Of a stretch of DNA of 41,675 nucleotides, positions 15,293 to 19,567 are shown in pieces. How positions within the stretch are numbered: the stretch's first letter is position 1; the number at the start of each line of letters is the position of its first letter. This DNA is from Muribaculaceae bacterium. Its GTDB lineage: Bacteria > Bacteroidota > Bacteroidia > Bacteroidales > Muribaculaceae. The stretch covers positions 1 to 41,675 of the forward strand of contig JAFLUA010000016.1 in NCBI GenBank assembly GCA_022508985.1. Direction: 5' to 3'. The position numbers and the translations under genes are program-made. Under the pieces are notes generated by a model that had not been told where the DNA came from, did not search any database, and saw nothing but the letters and a program-made list of their open reading frames with translations.

Positions 15293-17848
15293 TTACTTAA
15301 CAAGAACTTTCTTCCCATTTATGATGTAAAGGCCTTTTTCAATGTTTCTGATTTGTTTGAGCGAAGCATTGCGATAAAGCATGCGGCCTGAAATGTCGTA
15401 AACATTAGTCGGGGCGATGTCAGAATTGCTTAATATTGAATCAAGGCCTGAATTGTCGATTCCCTTAGTGTCGACTTCAATACTTTCTTCGAGACCATTC
15501 TCTGTTTCTACTTCAAAATCAACGACACCCGATTCGTATACCGTAATTAATCCGTTCTCTACTTTTGCTATTGAAGAATCAGAACTTGTCCAATTCATAA
15601 CTGTTGAAGCACCATAGGGGAACAAACGAACATTCAACATCTTCTTATCCCAATTTACCGATTCGATCTTTATTTCGGTAGGATCGATATCTTGAATATC
15701 TGTCGAAGAACTAATTCTTTTGCTTGATTGCTGATTTATTCTTTCACCTCTTGATGGTGTAGATACTATAACGCGGCAGTTAAGCGTTTCACCGTTGATT
15801 TTTGCAGTGACCTGTGTAACACCTGTAGCACCCATTGCTACGATAAGACCGCAATCGTTTACATAAGCGATATCGGTATTCGAACTGCTCCATTCCACTT
15901 CGTCGTCGGTGTTAAACAATCCGAGCTGAAACACTTCGTCGCCGGCCATCTCTACTTCATAGTGCGATAATGAAGCACCGCTGGTTATAGTCAAATAGTT
16001 GCGGAAACGTCCCCACATATCATCTCTTACGTAAGTTTTGAGTGCTTGTTCGTGTACAGTTACCTTAGCTGTTTCGTAAACTGATAGCGGGAATGCCGAT
16101 GGAGATAATGAAGGTGGATTGCTGGCGAATGATTTTATTGAGGTAATTTCAGTGCATCCACTAAATGCAGAATCTCTTATTTCGTTTAGGCTACTACCAA
16201 ATTCCAGTTCTGCCAAATTTTGACAATTGTAGAATGCGTTGTTCCAAATTGTTGTTAAACAATTAGGAGTTTTTATTGATTTCAAGTTTTTACACCCGTT
16301 AAATGCTCCTGAGCCTATTTGAGTTACATAAAAAGTCTCCCCTAAAAACTCTACTGTGTCAGGAATGGTTAAATCTTCGCTAACTTCTGAATATCTATTA
16401 ACGGAAACATAATTATTAGATATATCCAATACGCTATACCAAAGGTTTTTATATTCAAATGTATTACCAACTTCAGGAACTATAGGCAAGACTCTAACTT
16501 CACAAGTGGAAGAAAGAGACCCGCAACTAACTGTAATAAGGACTTCACCTTCTAAATGTGCAGTAACAATACCATTAGCTGATACAGTTGCTATATTATC
16601 GTCGGAAGATTCCCACTTTAAGATATCGGTTGTATATGTTGGTTCAATATATGCACTTAATTTGTAGCTCTGATTTTCTTTTAATGATAGTGTAGTTGAA
16701 CTAAGATATAGACGAGTGGCCGGAATTTCAACGTCATCAATGATTTCTGAGAAATTTTTCCAGGTATCTGCATCCTCATATATTTTTTTAGTGCCAATCG
16801 GTACATGTAAAATAACCCCAGCTAAAGAAACATTCATAAAAGTTGATAGGTCGCAAGATGGAGGAGTTGTAGACCATAAATATAGGTCATTAAGGTTATT
16901 GCAGTCTTTGAATAAATTTGTGCCCAATGAAGATAGTTGTGGTAGTAGTTTTACTGTTTTCAAACTGGTGCAACCGGAGAACATATGACCATTCATAAAT
17001 CTCACCGAAGAGGGAATTTCAATATATTCTAAACTTGTACACCCCTCAAATAATGACCCCGCGAAATCTGTTATTGAATTAGACAAACGCACATTTTTTA
17101 GGCTTGTGCAACCAGCAAAGACGGCATATTGAATTACTGTTACACTATCAGGTATGTCTATGGATACTAAAGAAGTACACCCTTGAAATACTTGCCACCC
17201 TATGTATTCAAGGTTTTTTGAAAGTTCTACTGAATTAAGATTTGTGCAATTACTGAAGCAATGGCCACCACCTCCATCGTGTCCCATATCTGTTATAGAA
17301 TCAGGAAGCTTAATTGATTTTAGTGCATTACATCCTGCGAACACGTAATTACTAAGAAGCTTAAGTGCATTTGACAATTGAATATTTTCTAAACTTATAC
17401 AATTCATGAAAGCTCTATCTCCCAGGCTGTTTAATGTATTAGGTAGTGTAACTGATTGAAGGTTAGTACAGTCGATAAACGCATCATTATTAATGATTTT
17501 AAGCCCATCGTTAAATTCAATCGAAATAATTTCTGAACCATTAAATGCGTCGTGCCCTATTTCTATAATAGAATTTGGTAAAATCATGCTGTCAATATTG
17601 GTATGCGCAAAAGAATAATTTCCAATAGAAACGACAGAATATGACTTGTTTTCGTATGACACCATTTGAGGGATAACTACATCTCCATTCACATCATTGC
17701 CAGGACTACTCTCAGATCCTGCTTTCGTCATACAGGTTTGGGCATTATCATTTAAAATAGTATAGTTAATACCCTCATAGCTGAAATCTTGCGACCAGAC
17801 TGATACAGTCGCTAAAATCACAAATAAAAAAGTGAAAAGTTTTTTCAT
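15293..17848 (-). CDS. BspA-like leucine-rich repeat surface protein with Ig-like (Big2) domains
   Basis: 851 residues with a signal peptide (MKKLFTFLFVILATVSVWSQ). Residues about 70-365 hold about ten LRR_5 repeats of the type AFxxCxxLxxIxLPxSIxxIG, and about 490-600 hold three or four more. Bacterial Ig-like segments follow the first block (WESSDDNIATVSANGIV, about 415) and occur twice near the C-terminus (WSSSNTDIAYVNDCGLIVA; WTSSDSSIAKVENGLITV). The final 35 residues (VYDISGRMLYRN...GLYIINGKKVLVK) resemble the shortened type IX secretion sorting tail seen in gut Bacteroidales. BspA-type proteins are surface proteins that can bind host matrix or other bacteria; the ligand here is unknown. 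The DNA is clearly more A+T-rich than the flanking metabolic genes. Confidence 0.88.
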   Translation of the reverse strand: MKKLFTFLFVILATVSVWSQDFSYEGINYTILNDNAQTCMTKAGSESSPGNDVNGDVVIPQMVSYENKSYSVVSIGNYSFAHTNIDSMILPNSIIEIGHDAFNGSEIISIEFNDGLKIINNDAFIDCTNLQSVTLPNTLNSLGDRAFMNCISLENIQLSNALKLLSNYVFAGCNALKSIKLPDSITDMGHDGGGGHCFSNCTNLNSVELSKNLEYIGWQVFQGCTSLVSIDIPDSVTVIQYAVFAGCTSLKNVRLSNSITDFAGSLFEGCTSLEYIEIPSSVRFMNGHMFSGCTSLKTVKLLPQLSSLGTNLFKDCNNLNDLYLWSTTPPSCDLSTFMNVSLAGVILHVPIGTKKIYEDADTWKNFSEIIDDVEIPATRLYLSSTTLSLKENQSYKLSAYIEPTYTTDILKWESSDDNIATVSANGIVTAHLEGEVLITVSCGSLSSTCEVRVLPIVPEVGNTFEYKNLWYSVLDISNNYVSVNRYSEVSEDLTIPDTVEFLGETFYVTQIGSGAFNGCKNLKSIKTPNCLTTIWNNAFYNCQNLAELEFGSSLNEIRDSAFSGCTEITSIKSFASNPPSLSPSAFPLSVYETAKVTVHEQALKTYVRDDMWGRFRNYLTITSGASLSHYEVEMAGDEVFQLGLFNTDDEVEWSSSNTDIAYVNDCGLIVAMGATGVTQVTAKINGETLNCRVIVSTPSRGERINQQSSKRISSSTDIQDIDPTEIKIESVNWDKKMLNVRLFPYGASTVMNWTSSDSSIAKVENGLITVYESGVVDFEVETENGLEESIEVDTKGIDNSGLDSILSNSDIAPTNVYDISGRMLYRNASLKQIRNIEKGLYIINGKKVLVK

Positions 17849-17948: not shown

Positions 17949-18470
17949 TTAAAAAAGTGCTTGCCAGACGTTCTTAAAAGTGATAAGTAATGTTTCGAGA
18001 ATGCTCTTTACCAAAGAAGTAAATAAAATTTCAGAGGCATTTTTTATAACACACTCCTTTGACCAAAATTTGTTTTGCTTCAATAGTTTTGATAGATTGC
18101 CGGATTTTATTGGCGTTATATCAATTAAAATTCTCTTTTGCTCAGATAATTCTACCTCGATTTTAGCTTTTGTAATGTTTTTTGGCGGAACTGCAATGAC
18201 AACAGTCATGTCGTTGGGGGCGTCGAGGACAAAACATTCAAATTGTTCTGCGGTTAATTTTTCTGTTATGAAACGTATTTTATACCCCTCAATTATTATG
18301 TCAATACACGCATCATCGTGTTCAAAAGTATTATTGTAATTATCAAGAAGGAAAGAGCGAAAATTGCTATGCAACAATATTCTGTTATCGTTAATATTTG
18401 CCTCGTGTAGATCGGTGTCAAATTGATAATTCTCTAACCCTTTTACCCAAAAGACGATATTGTTTTTCAT
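17949..18470 (-). CDS. Unrecognised 173-aa protein behind a structured leader
   Basis: I do not recognise a family. The 173 residues begin MKNNIVFWVKGLENYQFD; there is no signal peptide or lipobox. The first two thirds look like mixed alpha/beta with many Asn, Asp and Ile; a Lys-rich part (KLLKQNKFWSKE) follows and the last 30 residues (LFTSLVKSILETLLITFKNV) form a hydrophobic or amphipathic helix that could touch a membrane or partner. Base use is A+T-rich, like the neighbouring LRR gene. There is no clear Shine-Dalgarno next to the ATG; AGGAGAGG lies over 20 nt upstream. The candidate structured RNA at 18518-18839 lies directly upstream on the same strand. Confidence 0.6.
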   Translation of the reverse strand: MKNNIVFWVKGLENYQFDTDLHEANINDNRILLHSNFRSFLLDNYNNTFEHDDACIDIIIEGYKIRFITEKLTAEQFECFVLDAPNDMTVVIAVPPKNITKAKIEVELSEQKRILIDITPIKSGNLSKLLKQNKFWSKECVIKNASEILFTSLVKSILETLLITFKNVWQALF

Positions 18471-18481
18471 ACAATCGAAAT

Positions 18482-18834
18482 AGCCTCAGGCCTCTCCTCT
18501 TTGGCTATCAGATAAATAAAAAAGCGTGAGAGTCTGTATCATCTACTCGTCTCACATACGGAGGCTCTGGAATGCCTTTCAAGATGAAACGAGCAGTTAG
18601 AGCCTCACGCAAAATATGTGAAATTGTAGGGGCAACACTTATGATGTTTTGTGTGATAAATCCACGGCAAGACGCACCATGTCCCTACACAAATTCACAA
18701 CCGAAAGGCATCCATCACTGCTTCATTTGACCTTGATTGAAAATTTCCAGATTTCCCGTATGTCAAATGAGCGCCGATAAACGCTTCAAAATATGTAATT
18801 ACACTCACTCATAGGCCTTTTAAAGGCCTGAGGC
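18482..18834. repeat. 11-bp inverted repeat enclosing the structured RNA region
   Basis: GCCTCAGGCCT (18483-18493) and AGGCCTGAGGC (18824-18834) are perfect reverse complements about 330 bp apart. The right copy lies at the predicted 5' end of the minus-strand transcript and the left copy 13-23 nt before the start codon of the 173-aa gene, so in a read-through RNA the 5' end could pair near the translation start. The right copy also takes part in a local palindrome AGGCCTTT/AAAGGCCT. No target-site duplication flanks the repeats. Confidence 0.6.
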
Positions 18835-18839
18835 GATTT
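18518..18839 (-). ncRNA. Candidate structured non-coding RNA, about 320 nt
   Basis: This fills most of the 437-bp gap between the HAD gene and the 173-aa gene. A consensus promoter precedes it. Predicted pairings: GCATTTGAC-type stem (18724-18731 with 18762-18769, extended to 11 bp with one bulge); AGCG/CGCT (18770-18773/18782-18785); a 15-bp stem of 18617-18631 with 18683-18699 (one mismatch, two-base bulge); and a terminal rod closed by GCGTGAG/CTCACGC (18524-18530/18604-18610) with CTCGT/ACGAG and AGGC/GCCT inside. Six T residues follow the rod on the minus strand, as in an intrinsic terminator. No long ORF with coding character lies in it. The conserved cores of RNase P RNA and tmRNA are absent. 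It could be a 6S-like RNA, another sRNA, or a long leader controlling the downstream gene. Confidence 0.5.
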
Positions 18840-18845
18840 GCGTTG

Positions 18846-18877
18846 CAAAGTTATTTATTTTATATGTAAAATGCAAA
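18846..18877 (-). promoter_or_regulatory. Promoter for the structured RNA (TTTG-N20-TAACTTTG)
   Basis: On the minus strand TTTG (18877-18874) and TAACTTTG (18853-18846) are separated by 20 bp, a full match to the Bacteroidetes promoter. There is no gene start nearby; the next start codon is 370 nt downstream at 18470. This strengthens the case for an independent RNA or a very long leader. Confidence 0.8.
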
Positions 18878-18907
18878 ACTATATTATATAAAGATGGCTC
18901 AGAGTTC

Positions 18908-19567
18908 TCAGATTAGATTAAGAATCTCGGGGAGTGATTCTATCTGATGGTGTGCTTGATAGTCGGAGGATATTGCATTGCTTTGCCTATGTATATTCAG
19001 GCCGTCGTCGAGTAGTTGTATTGTGGCCCAGCCAAGGCGCTTGGGAGCAATGAAATCTTTTTCGGGATTATCGGCTACGTATGTAAAACTTGTGACGTGA
19101 GGGTATTTATTTTTGAAATATAGGTAATTGGCTTCTGAGGGCTTTTCCGAGCCGAATTCTTCCGAGATTATTATATTATCGTTGTCGAAAAAATCGTATA
19201 AACCGAGCGCTTTAATCTTGTTGCGTTGTGTTATGCTACGACCATCGGTAATAATGCCCAATATTGCACCCTCTGATTTGAGATGCTTTAATAATAGAGA
19301 GGAAGTCGTCGGCAGGCTTATATCAGGCATGTGCTTGCGATACCAGTCGAGATACTGCCGTATGTGCGTATTGAAATGAAATCGTTCTTCAAGATGGTCG
19401 AAAGGATTCTCTCCCGATGAAAATGCGCCCCACAAAGTGTCGTAAATCTGAGTGTGCGTAGTCGTGCCCTGAAGCTGATCCGATATATATCGAAACGCGC
19501 TTTTAACATATTCTATCTCTTTATAGAGAGTGTCGTCAAGGTCGAAAACAACGCATTGTGAAAGCAT
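18908..19567 (-). CDS. HAD-superfamily hydrolase
   Basis: Probable phosphatase, 219 residues. Motif I is DLDDTL (nucleophile Asp9, general acid Asp11), motif II is IITDGRS, motif III is the Lys in SEKPSEANY, and motif IV is YVADNPEKDF. A helical cap at about 20-85 makes it a type I HAD. The substrate cannot be told from sequence. It follows dnaG by 19 bp on the same strand, so it is likely cotranscribed. Confidence 0.85.
   Translation of the reverse strand: MLSQCVVFDLDDTLYKEIEYVKSAFRYISDQLQGTTTHTQIYDTLWGAFSSGENPFDHLEERFHFNTHIRQYLDWYRKHMPDISLPTTSSLLLKHLKSEGAILGIITDGRSITQRNKIKALGLYDFFDNDNIIISEEFGSEKPSEANYLYFKNKYPHVTSFTYVADNPEKDFIAPKRLGWATIQLLDDGLNIHRQSNAISSDYQAHHQIESLPEILNLI

Follow-up and report, generated by a model that had tools for sequence, protein, structure and literature searches.

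The RNA locus in the window

The window, that is, the whole stretch of 41,675 nucleotides that was analyzed, carries on its minus strand an RNA locus with a HAD-type hydrolase gene upstream of it and two protein-coding genes behind it. The features of the locus are as follows:

18846..18877, minus strand: promoter TTTG-N20-TAACTTTG, with TTTG at 18877-18874 and TAACTTTG at 18853-18846 (direct reading)
18811..18845, minus strand: 5' hairpin AGGCCUUU..AAGGCCU of the window copy (direct reading)
18523-18518, minus strand: U-run, T6, of the window copy (direct reading)
18483..18505, minus strand: hairpin after the U-run, GCC 18505-18503 pairing with GGC 18485-18483, containing strand d3 at 18496-18492 (direct reading)
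17949..18470, minus strand: downstream ORF of 173 aa without Pfam match, start codon at 18470
15293-17848, minus strand: BspA-type leucine-rich-repeat gene of 851 aa behind the 173-aa ORF

Between the promoter and T6 lies a structured RNA of about 320 nt. The 336-nt fold of the window RNA reached -110.9 kcal/mol, while shuffled sequences had a mean of -82.8 (sd 4.3, z = -6.57, 0 of 100 shuffles as low). An earlier note on this DNA had proposed an unannotated RNA with its own promoter and about 320 nt of strong structure, which agrees with this result and with the promoter read at 18877-18846 (minus strand), and the proposal can now be extended to a family with covariation. The 11-bp stem described there is stem b (18596-18586 pairing with 18553-18543) and its 87-nt rod is 18610-18524, followed by T6. 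The 15-bp stem could not be recovered, as no uninterrupted stem of that length was found and the longest uninterrupted runs had 13 bp including G-U pairs. One 13-bp complement (with G-U pairs) of the window copy joins 18713-18701, the 3' strand of helix P4, to 18582-18570 in the loop of hairpin b. The hairpin after the U-run sits 5' of the start codon, and a similar one was seen in many copies of the RNA.

Distribution of the RNA family

A blastn search detected further copies in the genome of the window and matches in 20 of 61 genomes, its own included. A covariance model of the 3' module (R1; 25 copies, 108 positions) matched seven places in the window's genome, and matches were present in 45 of 49 genomes of the genus, in 91 of 99 genomes of the family, representing 28 of 30 genera, and in 26 of 198 genomes drawn from the order (own genome included in each case). 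Eight of these 26 order matches are doubtful, with weak E-values only (1e-4 to 1e-3); seven of the eight genomes were retrieved, and all seven failed the profile filter, as did some strong model matches. In a sample of the class, 5 of 295 genomes matched, namely the window's own, three further members of the order and a near-chance case (E = 5.9e-4). Antisense self-matches of R1 (26 of 126) were removed by a later E-value limit.

An exact 20-base pattern was found in 64 stretches of named genome contigs, 57 of them with a nearly full-length copy. The record titles name Muribaculaceae, Paramuribaculum, Duncaniella, Prevotella, Paraprevotella, Alistipes, Bacteroides, Barnesiella, Coprobacter and similar taxa, and many records come from rumen, rectum or faeces. 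Carriers available in culture include Paraprevotella xylaniphila YIT 11841, Muribaculum caecicola and Heminiphilus faecis. Full copies were also seen in two records titled Clostridiales and Lachnoclostridium (L103 and L073); the title of L103 is probably wrong. The window and 246 loci together yielded 175 distinct copies, 162 of which are near-complete. Judged from these sequences, the window RNA represents one member of a structured, strongly conserved RNA family of gut Bacteroidales without Rfam match. In the window's genome, a tRNA-like gene read from the sequence at 2580-2700 of locus L012 has a promoter and first bases closely resembling those of the window RNA, and the 29-base, 90%-identical match near a tRNA (L007/L012) represents this shared promoter and first bases, not a copy.

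The earlier note had named an Rfam search as a check, and no family reached the gathering score in the window. A search of 18400-18920 at E up to 10 yielded no more than four matches below threshold, all to snoRNA or lncRNA families, so that no core of RNase P, tmRNA or 6S RNA was recognized; the note's statement that the RNase P RNA and tmRNA cores are lacking therefore holds for the Rfam and ARAGORN models. Two sets of 13 loci with other copies, searched against Rfam at E up to 1, gave chance-level or unrelated matches only and no 6S; among these matches were three genuine tRNAs and, in another part of L102, an L20-leader match below threshold (E = 0.09). The Rfam library includes the models of OLE, ROOL and GOLLD, which matched neither the window nor the sets of other loci. 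Identity with 6S, RNase P RNA, tmRNA or any Rfam family was thus rejected. A 6S-like RNA, which the note had considered, is further opposed by the relaxed search, by the number of R1 matches per genome (up to 15 or 16) and by the position of the copies before genes. No description of this RNA was found among the literature matches listed, and the retrieved part of PMC11109978 contains no word beginning with Bacteroid.

The layout around the RNA is well kept. A TAnnTTTG box lies at most 160 nt upstream in 148 of the 162 near-complete copies, compared with 8.7% in base shuffles, and a same-strand ATG ORF begins at most 140 nt downstream in 142 of them (at least 50 codons; 3 of the 142 are shorter, being cut by the contig end), a position directly 5' of a same-strand gene like that of riboswitches. 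The ORF starts 50-71 nt after the stem in 94 of these 142 copies and 40-100 nt after it in 126. Several of the remaining 20 copies are at contig ends, and in most others a same-strand frame follows at a greater distance or an alternative start codon is present; in L095 there is an opposite-strand ORF only. Many copies (e.g., L071, L072, L120) have a domain of about 45 nt between promoter and core that resembles a compact pseudoknot and reads GCAUAUCG..GGAGUCCCGAUAUGGGG..GCGGG..UGC or GCAGACCG..GAAGCCCGGUC..GGGC, while some, the window copy included, have a plain hairpin or little in its place. This domain may shield the 5' end or form a separate module.

Local hairpins and the stem before the U-run

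Local pairing in the RNA comprises the following elements:

18770..18787, minus strand: local hairpin P1, AGCG 18785-18782 pairing with CGCU 18773-18770 (94.2% paired, 46 copies)
18723..18770, minus strand: hairpin P2, stem 18770-18763 pairing with 18730-18723, strands g5, h5 and k5 in its loop (46 copies)
18708..18721, minus strand: P4, GCA 18721-18719 pairing with TGC 18710-18708, conserved loop (weak helix, 70.1% of cells paired)
18618..18698, minus strand: P5 arm, GTGAA 18698-18694 pairing with TTCAC 18622-18618 around a copy-specific hairpin (segment scan and reading)
18518..18610, minus strand: 3' module, stem c 18610-18604 pairing with 18530-18524 and enclosing hairpin b, then the U-run (100 copies)
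18554..18585, minus strand: loop of hairpin b, with k3 at 18585-18579, h3 at 18572-18566 and g3 at 18562-18554

Hairpin P2 showed double changes in all 8 of its 8 pairs, with 89.0% of cells paired among 46 MAFFT-aligned copies; four of the original 50 copies had been dropped (L005 and L244 with a misplaced anchor, L183 and L184 as the most divergent) and L170 had been shortened. For P5, the segment scan gave z = 5.6 (A+88 against P-108). Stem c (7 bp) and hairpin b (11 bp) were analyzed in 100 copies aligned with R1, which are the window and 99 of the 162 near-complete copies taken in list order, the more distant first. Here 99.9% of the cells of stem c were paired; for hairpin b the value was 95.8%, with double changes in 9 of 11 pairs. 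These double changes in P2 and b are compensatory changes of the kind that the earlier note had looked to in homologous stems. When the partners were slid by one column, the overall pairing of c and b fell from 96.5% to 44-46%, in an alignment that was itself fitted to c and b. The permutation within genomes did not place b beyond its paralogs (312 of 2000 as high; overall z = 3.3). Because b is conserved in sequence and the windows of this test often missed its strands, the support for b is the count of pairs with double changes.

A run of at least six T in 8 nt follows the stem in 149 of 162 copies. Of the terminator claimed in the earlier note, a stem and a U-run are present, but a scan for ordinary terminators (loop of 3-8 nt) was empty, since the loop enclosed by the stem ahead of the U-run measures about 73 nt.

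Several candidate helices were demoted. Helix a had double changes in only 1 of 4 pairs and overlaps h; P4 was demoted for its low share of paired cells; local P1 as a covarying helix scored 14.66 against 14.52 permuted (266 of 2000 as high); and the alternative pairing b-alt (UUGCUC with GGGCA) was 96.5% paired but had double changes in 1 of 5 pairs. In this part of the RNA (18573-18596 in the window), the b5 strand (UUGCUC in the family) is able to pair either with b3 or, as b-alt, with the next GGGCA, a possible third state.

Long-range pairing between two hairpin loops

In an unbiased permutation scan of segment against segment in 90 diverse copies, long-range pairings emerged that had not been sought. 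Their strands are located as follows:

18755..18763, minus strand: g5 (ACATACGGG), pairing with g3 18562-18554
18745..18751, minus strand: h5 (TCTGGAA), pairing with h3 18572-18566
18730..18736, minus strand: k5 (TCAAGGT), pairing with k3 18585-18579
18521..18527, minus strand: f3 (ACGCTTT), pairing with f5 18787-18781 in the rod and partly with c5 in the local fold

Among 158 copies, helix g (median 9 bp, 120 distinct strands) scored 20.63 with its own partner and 11.14 with permuted partners (z = 51.6), and the own partner exceeded 95% of foreign partners in 141 of the 158. The corresponding values were 17.54 and 11.93 for h (7 bp, z = 25.3) and 18.12 and 12.22 for k (8 bp, 117 distinct strands, z = 33.0). 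Own partners also outscored the partners of paralogs within the same genome (54 copies, 21 genomes; 20.48 against 10.44 for g, 17.61 against 11.92 for k), and none of 2000 within-genome permutations was as high as the own score for g, h, k or P2. The strands of g5, h5 and k5 in the loop of P2 thus face k3, h3 and g3 in the loop of b, making P2 and b two hairpins with complementary loops.

Helix f pairs AAAAGCGU, the 5' core strand, with ACGCUUUU, the strand of the stem and U-run (18.29 own against 17.36 permuted, sd 0.12, 0 of 2000 as high). At its second U-run position, C stands opposite G in 10 of 17 G-bearing copies (Fisher P-value = 6e-7) and U-A occurs in L064 and L067, with nine A-C mismatches. 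This count took 158 of the 162 copies, excluding one without anchor and three with a GACG 5' strand (L165, L170, L244). By reading, L165 and L170 (GACG with CGCGC) break f, and L176 alters both sides to give nine perfect pairs. The covariation signal of f is modest and partly clade-bound.

A helix to the gene leader

The stem strand contains one further pairing segment:

18528..18532, minus strand: d5 (CTCTC) of the stem strand, pairing with d3 18496-18492, 5 bp in the window

The partner element of helix d is found between the U-run and the start codon, in most cases 20-50 nt from the U-run. The stem strand reads GACUCUC in 79 and GGCUCUC in 42 of 173 copies. Among the 50 variant copies, with examples such as AGACUCCCG pairing with CGGGAGUCU and AAAUGCCCA with UGGGCAUUU, the own score was 15.94 against 12.0 permuted (sd 0.34, 0 of 5000 as high). 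Over 171 of the 173 copies, two with a misplaced stem end having been removed, the values were 15.20 and 13.23 (0 of 2000), and within eight genomes (25 copies) 15.76 and 13.35 (0 of 5000). Taken singly, only 11 of 31 divergent copies exceeded the 95th percentile. The within-genome test covered 31 of 42 loci; the other 11 end in CACGU instead of CACGC, and these together with three others were read by eye for f. Because the d strand lies after the U-run, d is unable to decide termination itself.

The earlier note had drawn another link to the gene, an 11-bp complement between the two ends of the RNA. This complement is exact in the window (18834-18824 with 18493-18483, 13-23 nt before the start codon) and is the best of its row of 158, but it is private to the window copy: across the family, own ends scored 16.42 and permuted ends 16.28 (sd 0.21, 263 of 1000 as high), and the end complement was rejected as a family feature. 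A stand-alone sRNA, also suggested there, becomes less likely because a same-strand gene follows nearly all copies and the covarying helix d joins the RNA to the gene leader. The suggestion of a long regulatory leader of the 173-aa gene fared best, although such a leader would act through f, g/h/k and d and not through the proposed pairing of the ends.

Two proposed alternative folds

The helices fall into two sets, each of which is nested. Set L comprises P1, P2, P5 and c enclosing b; set R comprises helix d and a rod in which f encloses P5 along with g, h and k. The sets collide, since c and f have ACGC in common, c and d CUC, and P1 and f GCG, while both P2 and b run across g, h and k. These five helices and stem c all have at least 5 bp in 142 of 155 copies, a lenient requirement alone because the length is that of the best complementary run per search window, so that the permutation tests carry the evidence; kinship of the copies was controlled in part, by the within-genome permutations. 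When each set was enforced in a nested energy model, the rod was lower in 75 of 78 copies sampled from the 155 (medians -103.6 against -89.0 kcal/mol), with a small gap in the window copy (-94.2 for the rod, -89.8 for the local fold), and enforcing f alone was better than enforcing c in 151 of 153 copies. This predicted lead of the rod is equally compatible with a static fold and with a switch.

Alternative covarying folds, as expected of a riboswitch, are thus found, and the shared and crossing strands suggest that they alternate. On balance, and as far as comparative sequence evidence goes, we consider the window RNA to be probably a leader RNA of the downstream gene, from a Bacteroidales family of two-state cis-regulatory RNAs. 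During synthesis P2 would form first, its loop displaying three single-stranded segments. In fold L, b and c would then form, and stem c with the U-run would end transcription or hold the gene off. In fold R, k3, h3 and g3 of the b loop would instead pair with the segments of the P2 loop to give a long rod, the 5' strand of the RNA would remove the ACGCUUUU strand from stem c through helix f, transcription would continue, and helix d would hold the remainder of the stem strand against the leader just before the start codon. A kinetic choice would be plausible because local hairpins form first in transcription, and candidate triggers tipping the balance may be a metabolite, a protein or transcription speed. 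With rather less than even confidence, we tentatively suggest a new principle of RNA switching, in which a single leader holds two hairpins with mutually complementary loops and each paralog has its own private code; the hairpins would turn into a loop-loop rod (inside one molecule or between two molecules of the same transcript) and the U-run strand would pass from the terminator-like stem to the 5' end of the RNA, then being tied to the gene start region.

The same helices could be read as one knotted, static fold, in which the loops of P2 and b kiss via g, h and k and a compact RNA binds a protein or shields the mRNA without switching. Such a knot fits the joint presence of g, h, k, P2, b and c in the great majority of copies, and g, h and k would each span less than one helical turn with linkers between them. 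However, the pairs c/f, c/d and P1/f must alternate because the two members of each use the same nucleotides, and about 23 bp of loop-loop pairing between two stem-closed loops should be sterically hard. We regard a purely static fold as doubtful.

Downstream genes and comparison with known leaders

The genes behind the copies include those for leucine-rich-repeat proteins, CsgG-like proteins and many proteins without assigned role. A Pfam scan of 74 of 92 downstream proteins (gap of 30-100 nt and at least 80 aa) identified 53 families, the commonest with four members (LRR_5, LRR_8, CsgG), and no shared pathway was apparent among the 25 families listed. Read by eye, the N-termini of these proteins often look like signal peptides. 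N-termini like that of the 851-aa BspA-type protein recur downstream of other copies, sometimes 290-360 nt away. In L028 and L096 the downstream small protein has a twin-arginine-like start and cysteines further on, and is perhaps a modified-peptide precursor. Among nine CsgG-like homologues with at least 130 bits, the RNA lies directly upstream in six and is absent at E 0.01 in three; on this comparison, the placement before orthologous genes is kept across genera.

Attenuation-type leaders and riboswitches use terminator/anti-terminator folds. The RNA described here shares with them a structured leader before a gene, a stem with a U-run and a competing strand able to free the U-run strand. 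It differs in that the competing rod is built from two hairpin loops with paralog-private sequences, in the large loop closed by the U-run stem, and in the lack of an Rfam match and of a common downstream pathway. A metabolite-binding riboswitch, with the conserved unpaired nucleotides at P4, P5 and the h loops as a ligand pocket setting the balance of folds, would account for the size, the conserved positions, the leader position and the several copies per genome, all similar to riboswitches, but the diversity of the downstream families and the absence of any Rfam riboswitch match speak against it, and we consider it unlikely, if worth keeping in mind.

A trans-acting or self-assembling RNA, whose loops would pair between molecules of the same paralog or whose stem strand would pair with the leaders of other copies, seems distinctly improbable. 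Covariation is blind to whether pairing of identical molecules is within or between them, g and k are private to each paralog, and the commonest d strand is shared by so many copies, all of which would agree with it; against this, a gene stands right behind nearly every copy and d is copy-specific where it varies, which fits cis action. A REP/MITE-like repeat or mobile DNA element that merely folds would explain a dispersed multicopy sequence but can be practically dismissed given the compensatory changes, the fixed promoter-to-gene layout, the conservation before orthologous genes, and searches in which the window copy had no match in plasmid or phage records and the 20-mer of the family none in viral contigs.

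Other known RNAs were compared with the putative two-state leader. The FopS sRNAs of Bacteroides, likewise a multicopy RNA family in Bacteroidales genomes and deposited in Rfam according to the text available, are probably a different family: their structure, so far as that text describes it, differs (PMC11697453), and no Rfam family matched the window RNA. OLE, ROOL and GOLLD are described in PMC12286853 as large, ornate RNAs of bacteria whose loop-loop pairings covary and in part connect separate molecules; they form RNA-only homo-oligomers, whereas the Bacteroidales RNA precedes genes and has no Rfam match. The motifs 6S-Flavo, Bacteroidales-1, Bacteroid-trp and Bacteroides-1 (Weinberg 2010; PMC2864571, in part) are structured RNAs of the same phylum, but no Rfam match was obtained here, their models being assumed to be in the library; Bacteroides-2 lacks an Rfam number and, by the account of that paper, is present in one sequenced organism. 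From the available sections of Fremin and Bhatt 2021 (PMC8040213), 3161 candidates of 27-219 bp were reported from human microbiomes, several in Bacteroidetes and some palindromic with predicted terminators, and a piece of this RNA may be included in that list.

If the reading as a family of two-state leaders is right, gut bacteria would possess a sizeable layer of control without an entry in the RNA family library. The family would also be a model in which to ask how an RNA settles on one of two folds that are each supported by covariation, and why loop codes differ among paralogs in one cell. If the suggested switch principle is true, many surface and secreted proteins that are unrelated to one another would be under the control of one device, used with orthogonal codes throughout gut Bacteroidales.
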